From the IMG/VR virus record IMGVR_UViG_3300042556_001537, positions 1 to 36,240 of that record: 36,240 nt of DNA, one strand, 5' to 3'. The DNA is from a virus. Shown piece by piece: positions 19,298-30,145 of the stretch. Both the position numbers and the translations under genes were made by a program. Each line of letters opens with the position of its first letter. Position 1 is the stretch's first letter. A model generated the notes under the pieces. The model saw nothing but the letters and a program-made list of their open reading frames with translations, made no database searches and was not told where the DNA came from.

Positions 19298-19493
19298 GCG
19301 TTCAAACTTTCCCGATACGTTCCCCTTTTGTCGGGGCTGTTAGCTTTGAACGCGGCGCGGTCTTTGTCATTGATATTGCGGGGAAAAGTGGCTTTCGTAT
19401 AGACGGATTTGCAATCCGCTGCGTAACCTCTCCGCCAACCCGCCTTTCAATGACTTAGCTACCGCGTTCAAAAAAATAACGCAAGCGTTCAAA
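19298..19493. other. probable attP: tRNA-Cys-like core with four GCGTTCAAA arm sites
   Basis: The 9-mer GCGTTCAAA occurs at 19298-19306, 19464-19472 and 19485-19493, and inverted at 19345-19353. Two copies lie on each side of a tRNA-Cys-like sequence (19398-19444). Phage attP sites recognised by tyrosine integrases have this design: a core equal to part of a host tRNA gene with short arm-type sites on both sides. The integrase gene lies 1.4 kb to the right. The 9-mer is expected about 0.0015 times in this length on both strands. Confidence 0.6.
19398..19444 (-). other. tRNA-Cys-like sequence lacking a normal T-arm
   Basis: On the minus strand, acceptor 5' half GGCGGGT (19444-19438), D-arm GCGGAGAGGTTACGC with the conserved GG (19435-19421), and anticodon arm with loop TTGCAAA and anticodon GCA (19412-19410) are all canonical for a Rhodobacteraceae tRNA-Cys. 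The following T-arm (CGAAAGCCACTTTTC) has no TTC loop, and there is no ACCCGCC or CCA. So it is not a working tRNA. Partial tRNA identity is typical of attP; a structured RNA is the alternative. Confidence 0.65.
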
Positions 19494-20574: not shown

Positions 20575-20605
20575 CAAAGAATCACGGTTCGGGCGCGGTT
20601 TGTTC
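20575..20605. repeat. 31-bp direct repeat, right copy
   Basis: Contains the last codons and stop of the HNH gene plus six bases beyond. Matches 19490-19520 with one mismatch (19508 A versus 20593 G). The two copies bound a ~1.05 kb segment. Confidence 0.85.
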
Positions 20606-20848
20606 TTCCGCCAGCCGATACACAATATCAAGTCGGTTTGCCTTCGCCTGATTGCAGCGATAGCACATTACCCGTAGGTTCTTCTTCCGGCCACTTCCGC
20701 CGCGCGATTTTGGGATGATGTGGTCAACGGTGGCGCGTAGTCCAGGTGGGCCAGACTTTACCGACCATTGCGGGTGCCACATAATGCGCCCGCATGTAGC
20801 GCAGTCCCTAGCCGCCAGCCTGACAAAGTTTCGCGGGTAAAGGCTCAC
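20582..20848 (-). CDS. HNH endonuclease-type protein (88 aa)
   Basis: GTG start in a GTGA overlap with the integrase stop. Layout: C16-x2-C19, then VDHIIPKSRGG (D42, H43), N57, and CYRCNQAK (C62, C65), a full HNH motif with two CxxC zinc knuckles. Compact HNH proteins of this kind cut or nick DNA during phage packaging or act as homing-like nucleases; here it is coupled to the integrase gene and ends at the 31-bp repeat. Role in integration or packaging is unproved. Confidence 0.8.
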   Translation of the reverse strand: MSLYPRNFVRLAARDCATCGRIMWHPQWSVKSGPPGLRATVDHIIPKSRGGSGRKKNLRVMCYRCNQAKANRLDIVYRLAEEQTAPEP

Positions 20849-21858
20849 TTCCGCTTCCCTCTCGCACTACGCGCCAGCATGATTTGCCGCGCTTCCCCGG
20901 CGTACTTCGCCACCATTTCCTTAGTCCGATGCCCGCTGTAGCTGCAAATCTCGTCGTCGGTGCAGCCTGCCCAGGCCAATTCCATCACGCCGCGATACCG
21001 CAGGGCGTGCAAGTCATATTCCAGAAGCCCCAGCCGCTTGCGTTCGGCCAGCATCAGCTCCGACATGCGCCGATAGGTCAGGGGAAGGCCCCGCACGCTT
21101 GTCAGGATTGACCGGGCCGGGTGCGGATTGAGCCGCGCCTTCTCGGCGTCCATCGCCATGCGCAACGCCTCAGTGCAGGGGATGACCAGCTTCACGCCGG
21201 TCTTGCTCTGCCGCAGTGCAATGGTGTCCCCGTCATAATCCCCCCACTTGAACCGGGTCCAATCGTCGGGCCGCTGTACCGTGCCAATGCCAACCTCAAA
21301 GATCAGGCGCGGCATACCACATGACTGCGCCCGCATTGTGGCAACGGCCTCGTCGGTCCACGGCACATGCGCCCGCTTGCGGTCGTCCGGCGTTGCCAGA
21401 AGGCTTACACCTTTGGCCGGGTTATCGTCGCGCCAGCCTATATCAAGCGCGCGGTCGAACAGCACGTTCAACACCTGGACAATGTAGTTGGCAAACCGCG
21501 TGCGGTCGGCATTCTCGGCCTGCGCGCGTATCACGTCTTTCCGCCGCATACCGGCCACGGGCAGCGGCCCCAGCACGTCCACAACCCAATCCAGCACCTT
21601 GCCATAGTCCGCCTGCGTCCGGGGTTTCAGCTTTTCCCATTGCGGCGATGTCCTGTAATCCGCGACCAGAGCGGTGAACGAGGTTGCCGTGGGCTTTGGC
21701 TTCACCCCGTTCAGCAGCTTGGCATAGGCCAGCGCGAAGGCGGGGGTTCCCGGCGCTTCCTTCATCAGCACCGACACGCCGTTGCGGCGGAACTCGATGT
21801 ATCGGCGCGGCCCGCGTTTCAGCAGGTAGCAGTACGCGGGAAGGTCACGCCGGGTCAT
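20845..21858 (-). CDS. int: tyrosine integrase
   Basis: 337 aa, last-but-one gene of the long leftward operon. Residues about 58-150 form the SAM-like core-binding domain (SFTALVADYRTSPQW). The catalytic set is present: R196 (in TVQRPDDW), K219 (SKTG), H284-x-x-R287 (HALRYRG), H310 (GHRT) and Y319 (KYAGE). The first arginine context is unusual (QRPDD in place of the QR-x-G form) but keeps R. The start at 21858 overlaps the stop of a tiny upstream reading frame. It should recombine the attP-like site at 19.3-19.5 kb with a host site. Confidence 0.9.
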   Translation of the reverse strand: MTRRDLPAYCYLLKRGPRRYIEFRRNGVSVLMKEAPGTPAFALAYAKLLNGVKPKPTATSFTALVADYRTSPQWEKLKPRTQADYGKVLDWVVDVLGPLPVAGMRRKDVIRAQAENADRTRFANYIVQVLNVLFDRALDIGWRDDNPAKGVSLLATPDDRKRAHVPWTDEAVATMRAQSCGMPRLIFEVGIGTVQRPDDWTRFKWGDYDGDTIALRQSKTGVKLVIPCTEALRMAMDAEKARLNPHPARSILTSVRGLPLTYRRMSELMLAERKRLGLLEYDLHALRYRGVMELAWAGCTDDEICSYSGHRTKEMVAKYAGEARQIMLARSARGKRK

Positions 21859-28874: not shown

Positions 28875-29243
28875 TTAGTCGCGCACCCAATCCGCAATCG
28901 CGCAGGGGCGCGCACTTTCCGGTATGAGCGAAACGTCGCCCTCGATGCCGGACACGTTGCCCCGGATTCCGGACACGTCGCCCTCGATGCGGGACACGTT
29001 GCCCTCGATGCGGGACACGTCGCCCGTGATCCGCACTTCGCCCCAGATGCCGGTCACGTTGCCCCGGATGCCGGTCACGTTGCCCCGGAAGCCGACCTCG
29101 CCCCGGATGCGGGACACGTCGCCTTCGATGCGGGACACGTCGCCCCAAATGCGGTCATGCGGGCCGTGAACTTTGACGCCATCAACAAAGTGCCAAATCG
29201 CGCCAGCAGCAACGCGGCGCAGTGGTTTTTCGATTTCGGTCAT
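28875..29243 (-). CDS. heptapeptide-repeat (solenoid-like) protein (122 aa)
   Basis: First gene of the leftward operon, behind the early promoter and GGAGGAAAG. After a short start with AIWHFVDGVKVHGPHD, residues about 33-105 consist of ten or so 7-residue units of the form I/x-x-G-D/N/E-V-S/T-x (IEGDVSR, IRGNVTG, IWGEVRI). Each unit has one Ile/Val pair facing inward, as in a left- or right-handed beta-helix. DNA units are 21 bp. No catalytic site. It could be a decoy or shield protein. Confidence 0.75.
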   Translation of the reverse strand: MTEIEKPLRRVAAGAIWHFVDGVKVHGPHDRIWGDVSRIEGDVSRIRGEVGFRGNVTGIRGNVTGIWGEVRITGDVSRIEGNVSRIEGDVSGIRGNVSGIEGDVSLIPESARPCAIADWVRD

Positions 29244-29414: not shown

Positions 29415-29549
29415 ATGCAGGAATTGATCTTGGCGCTGAGCAAGCGCGAATTGTGGGCCTTGCTAGTCGTGCTAGAGTCTAATCGCGACGGCCAGCCATT
29501 GACTCCAACACCACAGCAGCCGCTTCGGCGCGCGCCGGGTCGTCAATAG
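29415..29549 (+). CDS. possible small protein (44 aa) behind a G9 tract
   Basis: ATG at 29415 one base after nine G residues (29405-29413). MQELILALSKRELWALLVVL looks like a plausible amphipathic helix, but the C-terminal half is Pro/Gln/Arg-rich and overlaps the repressor gene's end. Low confidence. Confidence 0.3.
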   Translation: MQELILALSKRELWALLVVLESNRDGQPLTPTPQQPLRRAPGRQ

Positions 29550-29769
29550 CTTCAAGAGCGGCCAGGACGCGCAGCCGCAGACCTGACGTGTGGAACAGGT
29601 CGGCTGGGTCGCACTTTAGGGCGTCCGCAATCCGCAGAATCATGCTGAGGGTGGGGTTGCCCACGCCCTTTTCGATCTTCGATATGGTCGCTTGGTTGGC
29701 CCCGACCATCTCCGCAAGCTGCGTTTGGGTCAGGCCCCGCGAGTCTCGGATGCGCGCCAGATTCTTCAT
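29479..29769 (-). CDS. XRE-family repressor (CI-like)
   Basis: 96 aa from ATG at 29769 (MKNLARIRDSRGLTQTQLAE). The HTH is standard: QTQLAEMVGANQATISKIEKG with recognition helix NQATISKIE, then a helical C-terminal part (ILRIADALKCDPADLF, and LAALEAIDDPARAEA) for dimerisation. It has no RecA-type protease domain, so induction cannot follow LexA-like self-cleavage. Placed between the two early promoters, it is the natural lysogeny repressor. Confidence 0.8.
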   Translation of the reverse strand: MKNLARIRDSRGLTQTQLAEMVGANQATISKIEKGVGNPTLSMILRIADALKCDPADLFHTSGLRLRVLAALEAIDDPARAEAAAVVLESMAGRRD

Positions 29770-29848
29770 GTCCAGAGTATGCCGCGCAGGAATATGTGAC
29801 GCCACAACTAGCTGGGCATAATTTTCGCACGTCCGCACTGCTTTGGGG

Positions 29849-29877
29849 TTGCAAGGCAAATGCCTGTCAGGCATAAT
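29849..29877 (+). promoter_or_regulatory. rightward early promoter with operator
   Basis: TTGCAA (29849-29854), 17-base spacer, CATAAT (29872-29877). A perfect 13-base palindrome TGCCTGTCAGGCA (29861-29873) overlaps the spacer and -10. The expected start of transcription, about 29884, lies at the ATG of the next gene, so the transcript is close to leaderless. Confidence 0.75.
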
Positions 29878-29884
29878 GCTAAGC

Positions 29885-30145
29885 ATGATAACACTCACCG
29901 ACCATCTTCTCAGCACGGGCGAGACGCAAACCAGCTTTGCTAAGCGCATTGACGTGCATCAGGGAACAATCTCCAAGCTGTGCGCGGGTAAGGCCCCAAG
30001 TCTGGGCCTTGCGCTGAAAATCGAACGAGAGACGGGCGGCGCTGTACCCGTCGCGGCGTGGGCAAGTTCACTCAATACCTCACATGGGGACACCTTAGCT
30101 GATCGTCAAGATCAGGCCCCCTTGGCGCAAGGGGCAGCGGAATGA
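29885..30145 (+). CDS. Cro/YdaS-like regulator (86 aa)
   Basis: ATG at 29885, the first codons of MITLTDHLLSTGETQTSFAK at or next to the transcription start; an in-frame ATG at 29876 lies inside the -10 box. The HTH (TQTSFAKRIDVHQGTISKLCAG) is of the Cro/YdaS type with a short C-terminal tail rich in Ala and Gln. It faces the repressor gene and probably opposes it. Overlaps the next start (ATGA). Confidence 0.75.
   Translation: MITLTDHLLSTGETQTSFAKRIDVHQGTISKLCAGKAPSLGLALKIERETGGAVPVAAWASSLNTSHGDTLADRQDQAPLAQGAAE

Follow-up and report, generated by a model that had tools for sequence, protein, structure and literature searches.

A probable phage attachment site with the 5' half of tRNA-Cys in a temperate phage of Rhodobacteraceae

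Introduction

Temperate phages that integrate into tRNA genes almost always bring with them the 3' half of the gene, and the host promoter stays in charge of its transcription. The opposite arrangement forms a known but rare class: in Islander, the tDNA fragment is a 5' one in 159 islands and a 3' one in 3,760 (159/3,919), and 2,083 are anticodon-centred (PMC4383910). As a general rule, the anticodon loop of the target gene serves as the 7-bp overlap (review, PMC8371274). A survey of Rhodobacteraceae prophages gives their tRNA targets without tRNA-Cys among them (PMC8224337), and within the part of the literature that we covered, no phage-supplied tRNA promoters or 5' halves were found beyond those of Islander.

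The site described here lies in an IMG/VR virus record of 36,240 bp, the whole of which (hereafter, the window) was examined by computation alone. Positions 19298-19493 are very probably the attP by which a temperate phage enters the genomes of Rhodobacteraceae; the site holds the 5' half of tRNA-Cys, and the lambda-type integrase (Int) of the phage would act at the anticodon loop TTGCAAA. This site joins the class of 5'-fragment tDNA elements. As in the islands of that class, the host 5' part would be displaced, the element would supply the 5' half, and the crossover would fall at the anticodon loop; unlike in those islands, an unintegrated attP with four arms can be seen here, and close relatives of the integrase use both polarities. 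With the lambda attP/Int system the site shares a lambda-type Int, arms on both sides, candidate IHF-like sites, and, as inferred here, a 7-bp overlap, while it differs in the location of its core in a tRNA anticodon loop, in having two arms per side, and in the arm sequence. Rhodobacteraceae elements of the 3'-half type (L004, L008, L076, L012, and others) have the same target gene and core and integrases that are about 45-58% identical, but their int genes face the 3' end of the tRNA, and they carry the 3' half with a near-perfect IHF consensus after CCA.

Results

Genomic context and the sister phage

One flank of the putative attP encodes head, lysis, and tail-type proteins, and the other encodes NinB and a cI-like transcriptional repressor (29479-29949, minus strand; phrog_3, E 1.3e-15), which supports a temperate lifestyle. 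A 21-bp repeat, ACGTCGCCCCCGATGCCGGAC, is present in about 10 copies at 28933-29146, within overlapping ORFs. INPHARED phage records contain no DNA similar to the window, and an exact search of IMG/VR with the core pattern gave zero matches.

The tyrosine integrase that the initial annotation placed near the site is a protein of 337 aa encoded at 20845-21858 on the minus strand (Pfam Phage_integrase, E 1.1e-8; PHROG integrases). Its nearest relative of solved structure is lambda Int, and its alignment to lambda Int makes the catalytic residues (R, K, HxxR, H, and Y) readable in P0001. Between int and attP there is an ORF of an HNH endonuclease (20582-20848, minus strand), which overlaps the int stop. 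The distance from int to the tRNA 5' half is 1403 bp in the window, where the gap holds the HNH ORF, vs. 273 bp in a sister phage, L002, which is represented by a 45 kb contig and encodes an integrase 98% identical to that of the window.

About 230 bp around the site can be aligned between the window and L002. The 9-mer repeats, the tRNA 5' half, and two IHF-like sites described below are all unchanged in this block, several substitutions are located on the distal side of the core, and the sequences beyond the block on the integrase side are unrelated. No terminal repeats, which would prove the genome complete, were detected in the window record, as would fit a contig that is one end of a prophage (attL or attR, bordering host DNA) and not an attP. 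This reading is scarcely credible, as phage sequence extends to both sides of the site (head, lysis, and tail-type genes to one, the repressor to the other), and in the 45 kb sister contig the block is also internal, with arms on both sides. Judged from its sequence, the site in the window is an unintegrated attP.

The tRNA-Cys 5' half and the probable crossover region

The minus strand from 19444 to 19403 reads GGCGGGTTGGCGGAGAGGTTACGCAGCGGATTGCAAATCCGT and is identical to positions 1-42 of tRNA-Cys(GCA) of a Tabrizicola MAG (L012) and of Stagnihabitans tardus (L037). A match to the 5' and anticodon parts of tRNA-Cys (GCA) on this strand had been proposed in the initial annotation, which asked for a host gene sharing at least 20 identical bases; the identity found covers 42 nt. 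It ends at 19403, and the phage sequence beyond this point resembles no tRNA. The core holds the 5' half of the tRNA, anticodon loop included, and lacks the 3' half. Neither ARAGORN nor Rfam calls a tRNA in the window, as is to be expected when only half of a gene is present. The annotation was right to single out the identity to the 5' half as odd, although it is a real feature of a rare class and not an anomaly. What it took for a degenerate T-arm is phage arm DNA; no T-arm or other tRNA remnant is present there, and the 3' half would be supplied by the host.

The position of the crossover is suggested by the boundaries of tRNA remnants left in related elements. Remnants of the 3' half start exactly at TTGCAAA in L019, L021, L033, L035, L052, and L080, and remnants of the 5' half end exactly after TTGCAAA in G083 and also in G416 and G419, where they read GGATTGCAAAGCC. 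From these start and end points we infer that the shared core is the 7-nt anticodon loop (19408-19414, minus strand, in the window), flanked by the stem sequences CGGA/TCCG as inverted half-sites. Such a core agrees with the general rule for tRNA targets.

Putative arm-type repeats and IHF-like sites

Exact copies of the 9-mer GCGTTCAAA occur in the 36,240 bp only at 19298 (+), 19345 (-), 19464 (+), and 19485 (+), spanning 196 bp, which confirms the four copies initially noticed, with the tRNA-like core between the two pairs. The number expected in the window is 0.49, and none of 100 shuffles gave four; any 9-mer with four copies in 400 bp was obtained in 2 of 3000 samples of Markov-1 sequence of local composition. 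On the integrase side, the outer putative arm-type site is located at 19485-19493 (+) and the inner one, 21 bp from it, at 19464-19472 (+). On the distal side, the inner, inverted site is located at 19345-19353 (-) and the outer one at 19298-19306 (+). In the tRNA sense, with distances counted from the centre of the anticodon loop, the layout is that of direct TTTGAACGC at -78 and -57 nt, followed at +62 by an inverted copy and at +109 by a direct one.

All four 9-mers are kept in L002, and the inverted/direct arrangement of the distal side is the same in L108, the integrated element of G071. The arm word of this element is unrelated; two direct copies of TGATAACC precede the tRNA, and an inverted copy (with one mismatch) and a direct copy are found past the core. 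The recurrence of the layout with an unrelated word strongly supports the predicted arm-type function of the repeats. The proposal that arm sites around a tRNA-derived core constitute a tyrosine-integrase attachment site gains from both the sister phage and this integrated relative.

An IHF-like site, TTTCAATGACTTA, assigned by consensus match alone (one mismatch to WATCAANNNNTTR), adjoins the tRNA 5' half at 19445-19457 (+). A weaker one, TATCAATGACAAA, with two mismatches, is located at 19363-19375 (-); about 1.2 such matches are expected per 300 bp, and it is weak when taken alone. The two are symmetric about the core, at -40 and +42, and both are unchanged in L002. In elements of the 3' type, AATCAATGGGTTA, a perfect match to WATCAANNNNTTR, directly follows CCA.

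Integrase relatives and their target

Relatives of the integrase were collected from genome contigs (47, nearly all of Rhodobacteraceae) and from 395 genomes of the family. At most Rhodobacteraceae loci with a readable target they adjoin tRNA-Cys, at a distance of 83-160 bp, a result in favour of the initial annotation. The majority of relatives carry the 3' half, with int directed towards the 3' end of the gene; many copies hold the 3' half alone (L004, L008, L014, L076, and others). In a minority, int is upstream of the tRNA and on its strand, and it is with this 5'-half minority that the window belongs. Among the genomes of the genus and the family that were searched, no integrated close relative of the window phage was found, the best integrase being about 58% identical, so its own attL and attR are unseen. 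The pattern of the tRNA-Cys anticodon stem is present in a single copy in each of G003, G083, G350, G416, and G419, so the restoration of tRNA-Cys upon integration matters.

In Falsirhodobacter (L047, G006:C5, about 45.9 kb), an integrase adjoins a tRNA-Cys 5' half that has a host-like promoter and lacks the 3' half; within 40 kb on the element side there is no intact tRNA-Cys.

Integrated elements of the 5' type

G071 and G083 contain elements of 10 kb; in each, tRNA-Cys is intact beside int, and the opposite end is marked by a displaced 5' half. Two genomes of the Tabrizicola genus, G416 and G419, contain one and the same element of about 18-19 kb, which allows the contributions of element and host to be separated. 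At its int end, the leader is identical at 119 of 120 positions over 120 bp and the 5' half is identical, whereas the 3' halves differ (GTGAAGACC vs. GTGTAGACC) and the 100 bp past CCA are 25% identical; as they differ between the two genomes, the 3' halves and the flank are those of the hosts. The far end shows the host promoter and 5' half, with 47% identity over the 120 bp upstream, and the element interior at this end is 100% identical over 150 bp. The comparison at both ends indicates that the leader and the 5' half are provided by the element and the 3' half by the host. By homology, the window phage should integrate in the way of this element.

The stretches examined in G004, G241, G217, and G350 did not show a displaced 5' half; the 5'-type status of the first three is assigned from orientation and that of G350 also from its leader and arm repeats.

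The carriage of a 3' half by most relatives might suggest that the window contains an ordinary 3'-half attP with a decayed 3' half, in which the 5' half was left by aberrant excision and clean integration was lost. Such a history is very improbable, as the 5' half is invariant between the window and L002 despite divergence on the distal side, and integrated relatives use exactly the configuration of the window. A partial tRNA without a match to tRNA models might also be a decoy, a source of tRNA fragments, or a regulatory RNA unrelated to integration. The adjacent tyrosine integrase, the four arm sites, and the elements of relatives, which have their boundaries at the tRNA-Cys anticodon loop, leave this reading an even slighter chance. 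The preferred reading is that of an attP with the tRNA-Cys 5' half as its core.

The elements of the 5' type in G071, G083, G416, and G419 (L108, L109, L123, and L125), of about 10-19 kb, are smaller than the window phage and could be satellites or islands.

Discussion

A mechanism can be proposed in which lambda-type Int binds the four 9-mer arms and, as core sites, the inverted stem sequences CGGA/TCCG, probably assisted by DNA bending of the IHF type at attP. Int would then recombine the 7-bp loop TTGCAAA with that of the host tRNA-Cys. As attP has the 5' half and follows int, with both on one strand, the restored tRNA would be found at the int end, where an intact tRNA-Cys would consist of the phage leader, the phage 5' half, and the host 3' half. 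The host promoter and the host 5' half would end up at the other end of the prophage, and transcription of tRNA-Cys in the lysogen would have to start from phage DNA.

Candidate promoters were scored with a matrix built from 33 host tRNA-Cys leaders (CTTGCA, spacing of 16-18, NTANNN). In L003, L077, L084, and L088, element promoters similar to those of the hosts are present (shuffle p 0 to 0.012); their -10 element lies about 19 nt before the tRNA. Upstream of the 5' half in the window, the host-leader matrix reveals no convincing promoter: the best candidate, CTTGCGT-16-GTAGCT, scores 6.4 vs. the host median of 15.7, and shuffles equal it in 14% of cases (p 0.14). It is located at -18, nearly the same place as the element promoters, and its -35 element runs between the arm sites of the int side. 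The restored tRNA may be transcribed from a phage promoter, by read-through from int, or from another start. By bringing the 5' half, phages of this class would take over the transcription start of what seems to be the sole tRNA-Cys of the host.

In integrase trees, the 5' type does not form one clade, and parsimony requires at least three changes. A single 5'-type group is rejected by the AU test (p 1.05e-4; 1.56e-4 with stricter rows), from which G004, G241, and G217 were left out in the final version. The pair of the window and L002 is the deepest 5'-type member on the tree. It is possible, though we would put it at somewhat under an even chance, that one tyrosine-integrase family with a single tRNA target has repeatedly reversed the half that it carries, perhaps by flipping of the near-symmetric core CGGATTGCAAATCCG, with its palindromic TTGCAA centre, relative to int, and that in elements of the 5' type an essential host tRNA comes under the control of promoters of the element, located next to the integrase arm sites. 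That a near-palindromic core eases the reversal is speculation. We have not seen repeated polarity switching described in one target-specific integrase family, within our limited coverage of the literature. The occurrence of both polarities among close relatives at one target makes the determinants of polarity, its flipping, and the effect of lysogeny on tRNA-Cys supply accessible to testing.

Some loci contain integrases on both sides of the gene. In L088 (G350:C22:229558-231351) and L048, one tRNA-Cys is located between two integrases, and in L058, a probable further case, an integrase fragment is present on one side of tRNA-Cys and arm repeats of the 5' type on the other. In L088, L048, and probably L058, both halves of one tRNA-Cys may be derived from elements.
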